From assembly GCA_016187405.1 (NCBI GenBank), contig JACPJS010000011.1:1-35860 (forward strand): a stretch of 35,860 bases of DNA, given 5' to 3'. The notes under the pieces were generated by a model that saw only the letters and a program-made list of their open reading frames with translations, searched no databases and had not been told where the DNA came from. Position numbers and translations under genes: made by a program. Positions 24,840-35,177 of the stretch are shown piece after piece. This DNA is from Candidatus Aenigmatarchaeota archaeon. GTDB lineage: Archaea > Aenigmatarchaeota > Aenigmatarchaeia > CG10238-14 > SCSR01. Each line of letters opens with the position of its first letter. Position 1 is the first letter of the stretch.

Positions 24840-25358
24840 TCACCCGAATATATGCAGCATGAAATTTAATGCATCTGACCCGAATTGTATTATGTAAACT
24901 CCTGTATATGCAAGCAATAAAGATCTTAAAGTCCTTCCTATCAAAAGAGCAGCAAAGAATTTTTTCACATCATACTGTGATGCACCGCTTAGAATTCCAA
25001 TCAAATCAAATGGAAATGGTATGAAGGCACATACAAGAATGACATTGAATCCTATGTTTGAATAGAATTTTTCAAATCTTTTTAGGAATTTTGGAATATG
25101 GTGTTCAAATTTTTCAATCGCTGCAGTTCCACCAAAACCTACAAAATAAGCAATCAGTTCACCAAGTGCTGATCCGACACCACCAACTAGTCCTACTAAC
25201 AATGGATTCATACCGATTCCGACACCGAGAATTATGGGAACATACGATGGTACAGGTATGATTGGAATCATTACTGTCGATGCTATGACAAAACTTGAAA
25301 GGAAAACAGCAAGATAGCTACCCTCTGATATAAGATTAAGAAATAATTCCAATGCCAT
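24840..25358 (-). CDS. VTT/DedA-family membrane protein
   Basis: Polytopic, GGVGSALGELIAYFVG, FIPFPFDLIGILSGAS; start moved to MALELF because the ORF-track start lies in tRNA-Gln. Confidence 0.8.
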   Translation of the reverse strand: MALELFLNLISEGSYLAVFLSSFVIASTVMIPIIPVPSYVPIILGVGIGMNPLLVGLVGGVGSALGELIAYFVGFGGTAAIEKFEHHIPKFLKRFEKFYSNIGFNVILVCAFIPFPFDLIGILSGASQYDVKKFFAALLIGRTLRSLLLAYTGVYIIQFGSDALNFMLHIFG

Positions 25359-25399
25359 TAATTTTAAATGGATTGTTATGACTATATATCTTAAACGAT

Positions 25400-25506
25400 A
25401 GCCCTGTAGTGTAGTGGTCAAGCACACGAGGCTTTGGACTCCAAAGCTCTGATCCCAGATGATAGGAAGAACCCTCGGAACAGCGGTCCGAATCCGCTCA
25501 GGGCTA
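25400..25506 (+). tRNA. tRNA-Gln (anticodon UUG) with 34-nt intron at 37/38 (intron 25438..25471)
   Basis: A1-U72 AGCCCTG/CAGGGCT, D-arm GTGTAGTGGTCAAGCAC, CGAGG CTTTGG^[34 nt]^C CCTCG. CTTT pairs with GAAG; GG^A and AA^C bulges. Confidence 0.85.
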
Positions 25507-25508
25507 TT

Positions 25509-26102
25509 CTATTTTTTCTTCAACCACATCACAATCATTACGATTGCGAGAACTACCACAATTATGTCAATCATCGATGTGTATTGCAATATAGTCTGCC
25601 AGTTTTCACCGAGAATCACGCCGATGTATGTCAGGAAAGTGTTCCACGGCAGCGATCCTATTGCTGTGTACAAAGAGAATTTTAATAGATTCATTCTTGT
25701 TATTCCAGCTGGAAGCGATATGTAAGTCCTTACCGCAGGCAGGTTTCTTGACAGAAGAATTATCCTATCACCGAATTTCTCGAACCATCTGTCTGCCATG
25801 TCAAGATGCGATTCGTGTATGAATACGTATTTACCGTATTTCAGAATCAAGTTCCTACCAACACTCTTCCCTATGAAGTATGATATCAGCGATCCGACAA
25901 GATTGCCAAGCGTCCCTGCAAGAACCACGAGCCAGAAATCAATTCTCCCCGTCGCCACCAGAAATCCGGAGAACGGCATTATTATTTCACTTGGAACCGG
26001 CAGCAATGCGCTCTCGAATACCATCAGAAGGAAAACTCCAACATAACCTATCTGGGAGATTATGCTCATGACAGGACCAGCTACCAATTCTGCCAACACC
26101 AT
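25509..26102 (-). CDS. DedA family membrane protein
   Basis: ESALLPVPSEIIMPFSGFLV, GTLGNLVGSLISYFIGKSVGR, SRNLPAVRTYISLPAGITRM. Confidence 0.92.
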   Translation of the reverse strand: MVLAELVAGPVMSIISQIGYVGVFLLMVFESALLPVPSEIIMPFSGFLVATGRIDFWLVVLAGTLGNLVGSLISYFIGKSVGRNLILKYGKYVFIHESHLDMADRWFEKFGDRIILLSRNLPAVRTYISLPAGITRMNLLKFSLYTAIGSLPWNTFLTYIGVILGENWQTILQYTSMIDIIVVVLAIVMIVMWLKKK

Positions 26103-26137
26103 ACAGACAATTAATCTTAAGCAGATAAATAATATTT

Positions 26138-26554
26138 GTGATACTTGAAATTTTTCTTGCAATAACAGTTCTGGCACTGTTTGTGATTGTTGTCAAATAT
26201 GTCCAGTTGAGAATGAGCTTTGATCAGAAAATAAAGGAATGGATTTCAACATACGACAAGAGTTCACGTGAGGATGCCATATTGAGAAGTTCCAGGACAT
26301 TGTCCGGGAAAACTTTGGAGAGACTGATTCCATTCCTCAAGGATTTCGAATACGATCCGCATGACATCAGATGGATGGGAGATCCGATAGATTTTGTCAT
26401 CTTCGATGGTAATTCATCAGAGCACGGACCGAAACAGATTGTTTTCTGTGAAGTAAAGTCTGGCGACAGCAAACTTTCTAAAGACCAGAACAGAATAAAG
26501 GAATTGATTGAGAACAGAAAAGTCAAATGGTATGAGTTCAAGATAGAAAAATAA
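26138..26554 (+). CDS. TM-anchored Holliday junction resolvase-like nuclease (COG4741-like)
   Basis: N-terminal TM; DPIDFVIFDG...IVFCEVKSGDSKLSKDQ matches a PD-(D/E)xK core. Confidence 0.8.
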   Translation: MILEIFLAITVLALFVIVVKYVQLRMSFDQKIKEWISTYDKSSREDAILRSSRTLSGKTLERLIPFLKDFEYDPHDIRWMGDPIDFVIFDGNSSEHGPKQIVFCEVKSGDSKLSKDQNRIKELIENRKVKWYEFKIEK

Positions 26555-26990: not shown

Positions 26991-27764
26991 ATGAAAACAA
27001 TTCATGTCGCTATAATTCTATCAATTATAGGTCTGGTTTTCGTTTCTGGCATGACAGGTTTCTTCATTCTGAGAAAATCCAGCTCACAGGAATATCTTGT
27101 CACTAGAGTTATAGACGGAGATACGGTTGAATTGTCAGATAACGAACGTGTAAGATTACTTGGGATAAATGCACCTGAGATAACAGAAGCTCATTATCAG
27201 GATGCTAAAGACAAGATGATAGAACTGGTGCAAAACAAATCTGTGACATTCGAGAACGGTCCGCAGGACAAGGATCTTTACGGTAGATCACTGAGATACA
27301 TTTTTGTAAACAGCACTTTTGTGAACCTTGAGATGGTTAAGGGAGGCTATGCTACTGTATATCTTCTTGATCCAAGTGAAAAATATTATCTTGAATTCAA
27401 GACAGCCGAGAAACAGGCTAAGGATCAGAAACTTAGAATATGGGGTATATCTGAAGATGGAAAATGCATTTCTCTGATTACTCTGCACTATGTTAATGAC
27501 GAATACGCTGCTTTCAAGAATAGCTGTTCACGTTCGATTGAAATGACGTCATGGGAAGTGAAAGATGCTGGGACGAAAATATACAAGTTCAAAAAATTTG
27601 TCCTGAATGGAAATTCTTCATTCGTTTTATTCTCAGGCAAGGGAACTGACACTGCAGGCAAACTCTATTGGGACAATGCGAAATCAATTTGGAACAATGC
27701 TGGAGATACGTTGTATTTGCGCGATGGTAATGGTAGTTTGGTTATCAGTTATACATATCCGTAA
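26991..27764 (+). CDS. Secreted/membrane thermonuclease (SNase) with C-terminal lamin-tail-like domain
   Basis: VTRVIDGDTVELSDNERVRLLGINAPE, DLYGRSLRYIF; C-terminal NSCSRSIEMTSWEVKDAGTKIYKF...W.N.GDTLYLRDGNG lamin-tail pattern. Confidence 0.87.
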   Translation: MKTIHVAIILSIIGLVFVSGMTGFFILRKSSSQEYLVTRVIDGDTVELSDNERVRLLGINAPEITEAHYQDAKDKMIELVQNKSVTFENGPQDKDLYGRSLRYIFVNSTFVNLEMVKGGYATVYLLDPSEKYYLEFKTAEKQAKDQKLRIWGISEDGKCISLITLHYVNDEYAAFKNSCSRSIEMTSWEVKDAGTKIYKFKKFVLNGNSSFVLFSGKGTDTAGKLYWDNAKSIWNNAGDTLYLRDGNGSLVISYTYP

Positions 27765-29167: not shown

Positions 29168-29217
29168 AAAACAAATTGGATTATGTGAATATAAAATAAG
29201 GATTTTTAATTTATAGT

Positions 29218-29553
29218 ATGAACATCCATACAGACGGTTCCGGGAAGACGGGAAGGTATGCATATGTCGTGGAGAAGGAAGGCGTGATAAAGATTTTCCA
29301 GAAACGTGGAATTACTCATAATGAGGCTGAGTATATGGCAGTTATTGTTGCATTGACCGAAAACAACGCGAAGGAAATAAACATATTTTCGGACAGTGAA
29401 TTGATTGTTAAACAGTTGAACAGAAATTACAAAATAAAGGAAAAAAGAATGTTAGACCTTGCATTGAGGGTACAGAAATTGTGTGAAGGAAGGAGTGTAA
29501 CTTTTACGTGGATTCCACGTGAGAGGAATCTTGCAGGGAAGGTGCTCGGATGA
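29218..29553 (+). CDS. rnhA: RNase HI-like protein
   Basis: IHTDGSGKTGRYAYVV, THNEAEYMAVIVAL, IFSDSELIVKQL, WIPRERNLAG. Confidence 0.85.
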   Translation: MNIHTDGSGKTGRYAYVVEKEGVIKIFQKRGITHNEAEYMAVIVALTENNAKEINIFSDSELIVKQLNRNYKIKEKRMLDLALRVQKLCEGRSVTFTWIPRERNLAGKVLG

Positions 29554-29876
29554 AAGTTAGAATAGGGAACGATATTGTCGACGTGAAGAGATTCGGAAAG
29601 TCGATCAAGAGTCCAAAGTTCGTTGAGCATGTTTTCTTGAAATCTGAATTGAATAATATGGATGTCGATCATCTAGCAGGAATATTTGCCGCAAAGGAAG
29701 CAGTGATGAAGGCACTTGACATGAAACCGGGATCATGGTTGAATATTGAGATAACAAAAGAAAAATCTGGCAGGCCTAAAGCAAAATTCGTGGATGTTGT
29801 TGTTGATTCTGATCTGAGCATAACCCATGACGGTAGATATGCAATGGCAACTTTCGTGGTTGTTAAAGATGGTTAA
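29550..29876 (+). CDS. acpS: Holo-ACP synthase-like 4'-phosphopantetheinyl transferase
   Basis: MKVRIGNDIVDVKRF, FAAKEAVMKAL, GRPKAKF, DLSITHDGRYAMATFVV; ATGA overlap with rnhA. Confidence 0.9.
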   Translation: MKVRIGNDIVDVKRFGKSIKSPKFVEHVFLKSELNNMDVDHLAGIFAAKEAVMKALDMKPGSWLNIEITKEKSGRPKAKFVDVVVDSDLSITHDGRYAMATFVVVKDG

Positions 29877-32304
29877 CACATTCGGTGATTTTGCAAACTT
29901 GTTCAGACATTACAGTAATCGTACCGCTATAAAGATTAGACCAAGGTTCAGGACGATATCATGGACGTATGGTGAGCTGTTGAAGAATTCACTTGCAATA
30001 GCAAAACTTTTGGTGAAGAACAAAGTGAAGAAAGGAGACAAAGTGATATTGTGGGCGCCGAATTCACATCTATGGGTCGCGTCATTCTTCGGGATTCAAT
30101 TCGTCGGTGCAGTCGCAGTTCCGATAAGCATTCAGAACGATGAGAAGTTTGTCAGGAAAATCATCAAGCAGACTAATGCGAAGGTTGTGATGAAGACATC
30201 TCGATTTTCCTCCATAAGAAAAATGAAGAACATCGATTTGGAAAATATTTCATTCGATGATTATAGGTTCACTCCTGTGAAAACAAGGGATGATAACATA
30301 GCAGAGATTGTTTATACATCAGGGACTACCGGTGATCCGAAAGGAGTGGTACTTATGCACAGGAACATTCTGAGCAATGTGAAAGCAATATCCGAGATAA
30401 TCACAATCAAACCCGATGACAGATTTTTGTCCATACTTCCATTGTCGCATATGTTTGAACAGACTGCAGGAATGTTATTACCGTTTTATAAAGGATGCCA
30501 GATAACGTACGCGACCAGCTTGAATTCAATAGCACTGAGGAAGAATCTTGTTGACGACAGGATAACAAAACTTGTTGCAGTACCTGAATTCCTGAAGATC
30601 GTGATGAACAGGATTGAGAACGAGGCCGAGAACCAGAACAAGAAAAAACAATTGGACAGATTGTTCAACATATCAGAAAAAATTCCTTTCATGTCATTGA
30701 GGAAAATTATTTTCAGGCCTGTGCTGAAAAAATTCGGGAATCTTGATACGGTCGCTTCTGGCGGTGCACCACTTGAAAAGGAAATCGGCGAAAAATGGGA
30801 GAAGATGGGAATATATGTGTTGCAGGGATATGGTACCACAGAGACTTCACCAGTGATTTCTGCAAATGGTTATGAAGATAGAAAAATAGATTCGGTAGGT
30901 AAGGTCGTTGATGGTGTTGAAATAAAATTCTCCGATGATGGCGAGATACTTGTGAATGGACCTAATGTAACACTCGGTTATTACAAGAGACCTGATAAGA
31001 CAGAGGAATCTTTTCTTGATGGATGGTATAGGACAGGTGATGCTGGATATCGTGATGACGATGGGTATCTGTATATAAAAGGCAGGACGAAATACATGAT
31101 CATTCTTGAGTCTGGTGAGAATGTTTATCCCGAAGACATCGAGAATGAATTGAACAAATCGAATGTCGAGAGCTGTGTTGTCGGATTGAATAGGAATGGT
31201 AATGTAGAAATCCATGCTGTGTTGTCAGGAAAAATAAAAAATCCTGAAAAGATTATCGAAGATGCAAATTCAAAACTCGCATCATACCAGCAGATACAAG
31301 GATATACGATATGGCCTTATGATGATTTTCCAAGGACTGTTACGAGAAAGATAAAGAAGGAGGAAGTCATTTCATATCTTCAATCCGCAGAAACCAAAAC
31401 AGAGAATAAAAACAACGAACATTCCTATGTCGAAAGGATAATCTCTCAGATAGTTGGGATTAACTCAGGCAGGATCAATGATAAATCCAAACTGGTTTCT
31501 GATTTGAAAATGGATTCGTTGCAAAGAGTTGAACTTGTTTCAAGGATAGAGGACGAGACTGGAGTAATTATTGACGAGTCTGATATCGGAATTAAAACAA
31601 CTGTACGTGATATCAAAAAGAAAATCGAAAACAAGAAACACAAAATCGAGAAATATGAATTCAACGAATGGCCATTGTCGAATACGATAATAAATCTTAG
31701 GAATATAGTGAATAATCTGATAATATTTCCTCTGATATCTTTGTCCGCCCCACAAAAAATCGAGGGACTGGAGAATTTGGAGGGTTTGAAAGCGCCTGTC
31801 ATGTTTATGTCAAATCATATCAGTGGTATGGATGCTGGCATATTGTCGAGAGCTTTGCCAAAAAAGTTCAGGAGGGTAGCTGTAGCGGCTGGGATAGATT
31901 CCACTCATGAAAAATTCCCACAGTTCATCCCGTTGCTGAATTTCATCTTCAACATATACCCGTTCGCCAGAAAAGGTCAGATAAAATCATCGATAGATTA
32001 CACGGGAAGACTTGTTGACAGGAGATTTTCGATAATGTTATTTCCAGAAGGCAGAGTTTCGAAAGACGCCAAGCTGAAGAAAATAAAAGACGGGGCGGGA
32101 TTTCTTGCAGTCGAAATGGATATACCAATTGTTCCTGTGAAATTGATCGGTGCCAATTATGTATATCCGCTCGGCAGGAGAATACCTGAGTTGCCTACAC
32201 GTCATGATGTGAAAATAAAATTCGGAAAACCGATTTACTTTTCTCCAGATACTTCATACATCGATGCGACCAGAACAATAGAAAAAGCGATGAAGGAACT
32301 TTAA
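29869..32304 (+). CDS. Trifunctional acyl-AMP ligase - acyl carrier protein - PlsC-type acyltransferase fusion
   Basis: AMP-binding YTSGTTGDPKGVVL and GYGTTETSP, YRTGDAG; ACP site LKMDSLQRVEL (Ser codon 31516-31518); PlsC NHISGMD and FPEGR. 8-nt overlap with acpS. Confidence 0.92.
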   Translation: MVNTFGDFANLFRHYSNRTAIKIRPRFRTISWTYGELLKNSLAIAKLLVKNKVKKGDKVILWAPNSHLWVASFFGIQFVGAVAVPISIQNDEKFVRKIIKQTNAKVVMKTSRFSSIRKMKNIDLENISFDDYRFTPVKTRDDNIAEIVYTSGTTGDPKGVVLMHRNILSNVKAISEIITIKPDDRFLSILPLSHMFEQTAGMLLPFYKGCQITYATSLNSIALRKNLVDDRITKLVAVPEFLKIVMNRIENEAENQNKKKQLDRLFNISEKIPFMSLRKIIFRPVLKKFGNLDTVASGGAPLEKEIGEKWEKMGIYVLQGYGTTETSPVISANGYEDRKIDSVGKVVDGVEIKFSDDGEILVNGPNVTLGYYKRPDKTEESFLDGWYRTGDAGYRDDDGYLYIKGRTKYMIILESGENVYPEDIENELNKSNVESCVVGLNRNGNVEIHAVLSGKIKNPEKIIEDANSKLASYQQIQGYTIWPYDDFPRTVTRKIKKEEVISYLQSAETKTENKNNEHSYVERIISQIVGINSGRINDKSKLVSDLKMDSLQRVELVSRIEDETGVIIDESDIGIKTTVRDIKKKIENKKHKIEKYEFNEWPLSNTIINLRNIVNNLIIFPLISLSAPQKIEGLENLEGLKAPVMFMSNHISGMDAGILSRALPKKFRRVAVAAGIDSTHEKFPQFIPLLNFIFNIYPFARKGQIKSSIDYTGRLVDRRFSIMLFPEGRVSKDAKLKKIKDGAGFLAVEMDIPIVPVKLIGANYVYPLGRRIPELPTRHDVKIKFGKPIYFSPDTSYIDATRTIEKAMKEL

Positions 32305-32852
32305 CTTTTCATGCTCACTGACATACCGTCTGCAAGCGGAACCAGAAAACTCACAATCTTCTTGTGATTGAATATAGCCTCCCTCCATTTCTTCAACGGT
32401 TCCTCTTCCCACATCACATTGTCTGCAATTAACAACCCGTTCTTCTTCAACACCCTCACACAATTGTCCAACACCTGTACGTATCCTTCCTTCCATATGT
32501 CAAGGAAAATAATATCGAACTTGTTTTCAGGCATCTTCTTCAACAGTTCGGTAGCATCGCCGAATTTCGGGATTATGTTTTTTGCTTTCGCTTTCTTGAA
32601 ATTCCTCACGGCCTCGTCATAATAATTCTTGTCGTTCTCAATCGTTGTAACCTTCCCCTTTGTCCCGACTGCTTTTGTCATTAGCAATGCAGAATACCCT
32701 GTCAGTGTTCCTACATCAAGGACTGTCTTCGCTTGTGAAACTTTAGCAAGCATGTAGAGGAAATTTCCCTTCACTGGACCAACTATAGGCAAGAATTTCT
32801 TCCCGCTTGATGACTCTATCTCAATCTCCCTCATGACCGATTCTATGCTCAT
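32301..32852 (-). CDS. Class I SAM O-methyltransferase (COMT-like)
   Basis: VLDVGTLTGYSALLM, TTIENDKNYYDEA, FDIIFLDIWKEGYV, GLLIADNVMW. Confidence 0.9.
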   Translation of the reverse strand: MSIESVMREIEIESSSGKKFLPIVGPVKGNFLYMLAKVSQAKTVLDVGTLTGYSALLMTKAVGTKGKVTTIENDKNYYDEAVRNFKKAKAKNIIPKFGDATELLKKMPENKFDIIFLDIWKEGYVQVLDNCVRVLKKNGLLIADNVMWEEEPLKKWREAIFNHKKIVSFLVPLADGMSVSMKS

Positions 32853-32891: not shown

Positions 32892-35177
32892 CTAACCTAT
32901 GTATCTTGGTGAGACTTCTTCGTCGCCACGGCTCGACAACTTTCTCTTTCTCTCTACAAATTTCTCGTAGTAGTTGATCACATCCTTGCTGATGCTAGGA
33001 ACAGTCCTGGCTACGACATCTTCAAAATGTTTCATCTTTATTTCTTTCGTCTTCTTGTCTTCTCTCAATGCTTCCATCGCAGCTTCCCTGCATACGGCTT
33101 CTATGTCTGCACCGCTGAAACCATCTGTCTTCCTCACCAATTCTCTCAAATTAACATCCTTTGCCAATGGCATCTTTTCTGTGTGGACTTTGAATATCTC
33201 TGTTCTTGATTTATCATCTGGTGCAGGTACGAGAACCATCCTGTCGAATCTCCCAGGTCTCAACAATGCAGGATCGATTATGTCTGGCCTGTTTGTTGCT
33301 GCGATTATCACAACACCGTTCAATTCTTCCAATCCGGATATCTCTGATAACAATTGCGATACCACGGTTTCTGTTGCATTGCTTCCAGTGAACATTCCTC
33401 TTCTCGGTACCAACGAATCTATCTCATCCAAGAAGATTATCGCAGGAGCAACTTGTCTTGCTCTTCTGAATATGTCTCTGATTGCCTTTTCAGATTCACC
33501 GACCCATTTAGAAAATACTTCTGGTCCTTTTATTGAAATGAAATTCGCTCCACTCTCATTCGCTACTGCCTTTGCCAATAATGTTTTTCCAGAACCAGGA
33601 GGTCCGTATAGCAATATTCCATGTGGCGGTGTGATTCCCATCCTTTCAAAGTTGTCTGGATATTTCAATGGCCATTCAACCATTTCCTGCAATTGTTTCT
33701 TCACATTGTCCAGCCCACCGATGTCATCCCATTTTACTTTAGGAATTTCTACAAGGACTTCTCTCATTGCTGATGGTTCCACTACCCTCAATGCGTTTTC
33801 GAAATCTTCTTTCGTGACAATTAATTTTTCATAGACTTCCTTTGGCAGTTCCTCGTCTTCCTTCCATTTGATATCAGGCAATACTCTTCTCAATGAAGAC
33901 ATTGCAGCTTCCTTTGCAACTGCCCATATATCCGAACCAACAAAACCATATGTCACATCTGCAAGATGATTTATATCGACATCCTTTGCGATAGGCATGT
34001 TCCTCGTATGTATCTTGAAAATTTCCAATCTTCCATCACGATCAGGTACTGGGAATTCAATTTCCCTGTCGAATCTTCCAGCTCTTCTCAATGCAGGATC
34101 GACACTGTTAGGTCTGTTTGTTGCTGCGATGACAATTACCTTTCCTCTTTTCTTCAATCCGTCCATCAATGTCAACAATTGCGATACAGTTCTTCTTTCA
34201 ACTTCACCTGATACCTCTTCACGCTTTGGTGCGACCGAATCAACCTCGTCCAAGAAAATAATCGTCGGTGCATTCTTTTCTGCATCTTCGAAAATCTTTC
34301 TCAAGTTCTCTTCAGTCTGTCCGTACCACTTTGAAAATATTTCTGGACCGCTGATTGAAATGAAATTCGCTCCCGATTCATTTGCAACCGCTTTAGCCAG
34401 CAATGTCTTTCCCGTTCCCGGAGGACCGTATAACAAAATTCCTTTTGGTGCTTCGATACCGATTCTTTCAAATAATTCCGGATGTCTCAATGGTAGTTCG
34501 ATCATCTCACGAACCTTGTGTATGATTTCTCTTATTCCACCGACGTCTTCATATGTAACAGACGGGACAGTCCTGTCGTCCAGTCTCATCGAGTCTGGCA
34601 ACTGCGGCATGATTTCCAATTCAGTTACCTCACCGATCTTTACAATCCCGGCAGGCGTGGTGTTTACAACAACGAATCTCGTATCACCTAGAAATGGTGT
34701 GAAGAAATCCTCAAAGTCCATTCCGAAGAAATCCTCGAACAATCCAGAACTTCTTCTCCTTCCCGCAGGCGCTGGAAGAATTATGTCACCCTTCATCATA
34801 GGTCTCATGAAAATATTTTGCTTAATCAATTGCGGAGCTGCATGAACCATAATACCTTTCTGTGCAGGTGCCAAAATGACAGATCTTGCTTCCTTCGCAT
34901 CAGCCTTTCTTAATTTTACAAATTCCCCAACACCGCTTCCCGCATTCCTTCTTGTGATACCATCCATCCTTACAATGTTCAAACCGACATCAGCAGGATA
35001 TGCTCTTACTGCGATTGCTCCTGTTATCTTTTCTCCCTCGATCTCTATGATGTCCCCTTCCTTCAATAACAATTTTGTCATCGTACCGGAGTCAACACGA
35101 ACAATTCCCCTTCCTGCCTCTTCCCTTGCAGTCAATTCTCCTACCTTCAATTTCACTTCATGTACTGTTTCTGCCAT
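32892..35177 (-). CDS. cdc48: CDC48/VCP family AAA+ ATPase
   Basis: N-domain plus two AAA modules: [30 protein letters not shown] and [30 protein letters not shown], two Walker B motifs. Confidence 0.97.

Follow-up and report, generated by a model that had tools for sequence, protein, structure and literature searches.

A two-gene cassette of acpS and a ligase-ACP-PlsC fusion in an aenigmatarchaeal genome as a candidate route for fatty-acid salvage

The window analysed here (the whole stretch of 35,860 nucleotides from a Candidatus Aenigmatarchaeota archaeon) carries three overlapping frames on its forward strand between positions 29218 and 32304. The first gene of this putative operon encodes a 111-aa RNase HI (29218-29553) and is followed by genes for a 108-aa AcpS-type 4'-phosphopantetheinyl transferase (29550-29876) and an 811-aa protein in which an acyl-AMP ligase, an acyl carrier protein (ACP) domain and a PlsC acyltransferase are fused (29869-32304). 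The RNase HI and acpS genes overlap by 4 bp (ATGA) and the acpS and fusion genes by 8 bp, with an in-frame ATG at 29827 as an alternative fusion start giving 825 aa. A candidate archaeal TATA box, TATAAAAT (29190-29197, forward strand), recognised by its position only, precedes the RNase HI start by 21-28 bp, a spacing that would be compatible with transcription of the operon as one leaderless message. At its 3' end the fusion gene has a 4-bp convergent overlap with an O-methyltransferase-like gene on the reverse strand (32301-32852), the right border of the insert discussed below, beyond which a reverse-strand gene for the AAA ATPase CDC48 (32892-35177) is the conserved archaeal anchor of the locus. 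The positions and identities that an earlier note had given for the three overlapping genes were borne out by the open reading frames and by Pfam.

All domains scored above their Pfam cut-offs, with E-values of 9e-9 to 4e-70 that exclude chance matches: RNase_H at 45.4 bits (cut-off 25.8), ACPS at 39.5 (25), and within the fusion AMP-binding (PF00501) at 237 bits (29.9; residues 14-372, positions 29908-30984), PP-binding (PF00550) at 35.9 (20.8; residues 520-582, positions 31426-31614) and Acyltransferase (PF01553) at 60.4 (23; residues 631-758, positions 31759-32142), the last two scoring 41 and 63.7 bits in the genome-wide search. The four families that the earlier note had proposed to check (AMP-binding, PP-binding, Acyltransferase and ACPS) were thus confirmed, and its DSL serine, NHxxxxD and FPEGR motifs are all present in the 811-aa protein. 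Inspection of the sequence placed YTSGTTGDPKG, GYGTTE, RTGD and the lysine of a C-terminal TRKIKK in the ligase, DLKMDSL with Ser550 in the ACP domain, and NHISGMD and FPEGR in the PlsC domain. AcpS contains GNDIVD (D8) and AAKEAVMKA (E50/K54), and this region aligns with the solved AcpS 2jbz; its solved relatives by sequence are bacterial holo-ACP synthases such as 2jbz and 1f7l. It scored above the general domain model TIGR00556 (58.4 against 45.35) and below the acpS equivalog model TIGR00516 (50.6 against 59.8 bits). The nearest solved relatives of the fusion ligase by sequence are acyl-CoA synthetases.

The cassette comes from a single metagenome-assembled genome (MAG) of 440 kb in 16 contigs, 73% complete with 0.23% contamination. 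The same contig encodes CDC48, Cdc6, SRP54, an archaeal Pus10, DUF655, an S-layer-like protein and several tRNAs, so that the contig is archaeal, as the earlier note had assumed, rather than bacterial. Gene content and the small size of the genomes suggest an archaeon of DPANN type. The GC content and synonymous codon use of RNase HI, acpS and the fusion lie within the range of the contig's other genes, and sister genomes without the insert keep the neighbouring genes in synteny. Contamination is therefore unlikely and was dropped as an explanation; the native-like composition likewise gives no support to a recent transfer. Elsewhere in the window, a Staphylococcal-nuclease domain is fused to a lamin-tail domain in a gene conserved in the genus (26991-27764), and two neighbouring genes encode VTT/DedA-family membrane proteins (24840-25427 and 25509-26177), near a 107-nt tRNA match, possibly intron-containing (25400-25506).

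In the sister genomes of the genus, CDC48 is about 80% identical and has the same neighbourhood, RNase HI orthologues are 65-68% identical (53-68% across genus and family), and the methyltransferase has a syntenic counterpart, 72% identical, in G004. Neither acpS nor the fusion was found in the corresponding neighbourhood of these genomes. In G004 a 256-aa gene with no Pfam match separates the methyltransferase from RNase HI, which has an SDR gene on its upstream side. From this synteny we concluded that acpS and the fusion were inserted at a variable site following an RNase HI gene that is itself resident, so that RNase HI is probably a bystander outside the acyl chemistry. Truncation of RNase HI was considered and dropped, because its C-terminus is conserved in the orthologues: the proteins of the genus and family end in a conserved RExNxAGKxLG, with G at the position usually held by the fourth catalytic Asp.

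Among the 156 genomes of the phylum, AcpS above cut-off was found in four, an ACP domain in eight, PlsC above cut-off in two and the acpS-fusion cassette in this one. This rarity is in line with the literature, in which most archaea have neither ACP nor the enzymes that process it and the few exceptions are attributed to bacterial transfer (Lombard et al. 2012, PMC3533463), and it bears out the earlier note's premise that archaea usually lack ACP-dependent fatty-acid machinery. The ACP-PlsC half matched no other PlsC fusion in the phylum, and a fusion profile searched against 392 archaeal genomes gave one full-length match, the fusion itself; the other matches listed cover the ligase part only. 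The suggestion that relatives keep acpS and the fusion linked accordingly failed in this sample. When genome contigs were searched with the fusion, the only match was an acyl-CoA-ligase-like gene of Omnitrophota that has neither ACP nor PlsC beside it; a search of viral contigs with the ACP-PlsC half returned no match, and no other ACP was found in the same genome, which is 73% complete. From its distribution, the cassette is likely to be of bacterial origin.

Several candidate relatives were set aside on closer reading. A match in G074 with six apparent stops proved to be an intact 614-aa ligase rather than a broken gene. Large frames of 917-923 aa in G364 and G157 were rejected as ACP/PlsC fusions; they are reductase-ligase proteins whose N-terminal half resembles an NAD-dependent reductase and whose C-terminal part is an AMP-ligase, and a GMC-type oxidoreductase-like gene lies downstream.

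Other genomes combine some of these activities differently. In three genomes of the same archaeal class (contigs G069:C9, G136:C53 and G128:C11), AcpS occurs with ACP and AMP-ligase as in the cassette, but as separate genes, with LuxE-type acyl-protein synthetase and LuxC-type reductase (where examined) replacing PlsC and with ligases in a different clade. G136 and G128 have an additional iron-alcohol-dehydrogenase-like gene in the AcpS cluster. These are aldehyde/acyl-modification clusters, unexpected in archaea. In G007 (contig C12, 1132-2693), of the same family, a PlsC gene directly follows an Acetyltransf_5 GNAT gene, an arrangement that we take to resemble OlsB/OlsA of ornithine-lipid synthesis.

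Bacteria contain proteins with the same AMP-ACP-PlsC domain order as the archaeal fusion, colinear with it, 819-911 aa long and with the same catalytic residues. Ilyobacter polytropus carries two tandem copies (WP_013388595 and WP_013388596), and Fusobacterium animalis (WP_339072680), F. vincentii, Rubrobacter radiotolerans (WP_084264133) and the human-gut contig MT836834 carry one each. These Fusobacteriota and Rubrobacter have ACP-dependent lipid synthesis of their own. The gut contig (MT836834.1) was deposited as 'Bacteriophage sp.' from human faeces; it is more likely bacterial chromosomal DNA than phage. Identity to the archaeal protein was 27-30% along the full length for five aligned bacterial proteins and 24.7% for the MT836834 fusion. 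Y149-T154, K494, D549, S550, N649-H650, D655 and P726-E727-G728 are invariant in the alignment, and the bacterial fusions thus keep D549/S550, NHxSxxD and PEG; in the F. animalis copy the PP-binding match fell under the search threshold and the DSL motif aligns. Paraburkholderia aromaticivorans WP_095422956 has the same three domains in the order ACP-ligase-PlsC, as opposed to ligase-ACP-PlsC.

Within our comparison set, the ligase alone and the ACP-PlsC half alone each matched best or near best to the bacterial fusions. In the ligase tree the bacterial fusions formed a clade with support of 91/88, with the archaeal ligase nearest to it by path length and outside it, and an AU test did not reject placing the archaeal ligase within the clade (p-AU 0.158). 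A single origin of the archaeal and bacterial fusions is possible. No acpS is annotated next to the Ilyobacter, F. animalis or Rubrobacter fusion genes, whereas the archaeal fusion overlaps acpS; in F. vincentii, the one bacterium in which both were located, about 450 kb separate acpS from the fusion. The fusion cannot be called a new invention, as the earlier note had implied, since the same layout already exists in bacteria. We found no description of an AMP-ACP-PlsC protein in the literature searched, and the architecture is apparently uncharacterised there. The combination with acpS in an archaeon is an unusual and so far single variant.

E. coli-type Aas (2-acyl-GPE acyltransferase/acyl-ACP synthetase) and MFS-Aas (PRK08633/PRK06814) are likewise single proteins that couple an acyl-activating ligase to an acyltransferase of PlsC type, but with PlsC at the N-terminus, no ACP domain, a separate ACP and a gene that adjoins lplT, while the archaeal fusion has PlsC at the C-terminus and its own ACP. 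It failed the domain test for Aas (N-terminal PlsC, C-terminal ligase, no ACP) and fell below the equivalog cut-offs of PRK08043 (153.6 against 886), PRK08633 (200.2 against 1221) and PRK06814 (191.1 against 1349). Aas loci also include a gene for the lysolipid transporter LplT, and scanning of window genes recognised none here. E. coli-type Aas formed a distinct clade in the ligase tree; since the AU test did not reject grouping the archaeal ligase with Aas (0.117), we based the rejection of Aas membership on the reversed domain order and the failed equivalog scores. Bacterial acyl-ACP synthetases serve salvage and lysophospholipid reacylation (PMC9386255). In Caulobacter sphingolipid synthesis, AasR is a ligase dedicated to its cognate ACP, AcpR, and channels free fatty acids into one lipid (PMC9386255); these are separate proteins, unlike the fusion, and the acceptor enzyme is serine palmitoyltransferase.

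To consider what such a protein might act on, we examined lipid synthesis in the genus. In five of five genomes (G000-G004, four of them 86-93% complete) there was no match to GGGPS (PF01884) or to the UbiA family with DGGGPS (PF01040), both of which are present in a few other genomes of the family. With no recognisable GGGPS or UbiA in these five genomes, the lipids of the genus are probably obtained from elsewhere, which fits scavenging. Acquisition of lipids by DPANN symbionts has been documented or modelled (PMC11035636, PMC7242380): published systems take them from their hosts (PMC11035636), and CPR and DPANN organisms have been suggested to modify the lipids that they scavenge (PMC7242380). 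PlsC-type genes are sporadic in DPANN and other archaea (PMC6431249). No convincing ketoacyl-ACP synthase was found, with no PF00109 match in the cassette's own genome (G000, 27% of which is missing), which makes a role of the carrier in fatty-acid synthesis improbable. PF00109 matches in 68 of the 156 genomes of the phylum were short and partial, and those in the class covered 40-70 residues, nearly all in proteins of about 400 aa with a thiolase-like pattern; as evidence of fatty-acid synthase they were rejected, since matches of this kind are what thiolases give.

Taken together, the data incline us, at somewhat better than even confidence, to regard the two genes as a self-contained cassette for fatty-acid salvage that was gained by horizontal transfer. 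In this scheme CoA would supply the phosphopantetheine that AcpS attaches to Ser550 of the in-cis ACP domain; the ligase at the N-terminus would adenylate a preformed fatty acid and load it onto the phosphopantetheine arm in cis; and the C-terminal PlsC would then acylate a hydroxyl on a lipid, for which a lysophospholipid or lyso-ether lipid derived from a host or neighbour is the most likely candidate. The overall function would resemble that of E. coli Aas, but with the carrier in cis. Charging and loading of the ACP in cis are likely, as is fatty-acid salvage by the cassette, and a lysolipid acceptor is plausible, this being the weakest step of the mechanism; no acceptor-determining feature was identified. 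Acylation of a salvaged lysolipid is the best reading because the genome has no other visible ACP or ketoacyl synthase, the genus lacks GGGPS and UbiA, and DPANN archaea acquire lipids. Much the same pathway had been suggested in the earlier note, and the domains, the archaeal contig, the rarity of ACP machinery and the missing GGGPS/UbiA speak for it; the parts that did not hold are the novelty of the fusion and a conserved linkage to acpS.

The acyl-ACP chemistry could run as proposed while PlsC acylates a glycolipid, a polyprenyl-linked glycan or an envelope component, a rather unlikely reading to which a glycosyltransferase family 2 gene, the two VTT/DedA proteins and the S-layer-like protein in the window lend some weight, as do the other AcpS carriers of the class, which cluster ACP and ligase with LuxE/LuxC, SDR and sugar-type genes. 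These window genes, however, lie about 3-10 kb away, several are kept in sister genomes that lack the cassette, and the PlsC domain fits the standard glycerolipid acyltransferase family. Acylation of sn-glycerol-1-phosphate or a monoalkyl glycerol ether lipid, giving mixed ether/ester lipids, appears quite improbable: host ether lipids or lysolipids are possible substrates in a genus without recognisable GGGPS or UbiA, and scattered PlsC-type genes are known from DPANN and other archaea (PMC6431249), but no sequence feature fixes the stereospecificity and the window revealed no further bacterial gene for glycerolipids.

More doubtful again is a vestigial ACP, with the ligase making acyl-CoA, PlsC using it and AcpS having no role or another one. 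That the ligase's nearest solved relatives are acyl-CoA synthetases would suit this, yet the DSL motif is retained, the ACP score is above cut-off, the catalytic residues of AcpS are intact, its gene overlaps that of the fusion, and the genome offers no other visible AcpS substrate. Least probable is that the cassette stems from faulty assembly or binning, or is a functionless piece of foreign DNA present only transiently; it is known from one 73%-complete MAG, with no relative in the phylum that carries it, but its coding overlaps with resident archaeal genes on both sides, its GC and codon use, the 0.23% contamination and intact motifs free of stops all argue against such an origin.

The unusual feature is the archaeal setting with its own activating gene and not the enzyme layout. 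Carrier, charging enzyme, ligase and acyltransferase in two genes would be the smallest plausible archaeal route to fatty acids in a lipid, and in protein engineering the cassette could serve as a compact unit that loads and transfers acyl groups in cis. We hold it a tentative possibility, a good deal weaker than salvage itself, that a symbiotic archaeon unable to build ether lipids acquired this minimal two-gene cassette from bacteria, that the cassette needs no further ACP machinery, and that it attaches scavenged fatty acids by ester bonds to lysolipids of host or bacterial origin, which would put ester-linked chains in the archaeon's membrane. The cassette thus offers a testable route by which lipid-dependent DPANN archaea may remodel scavenged lipids, and it reduces the question of whether such an archaeon can use fatty acids to a two-gene experiment.
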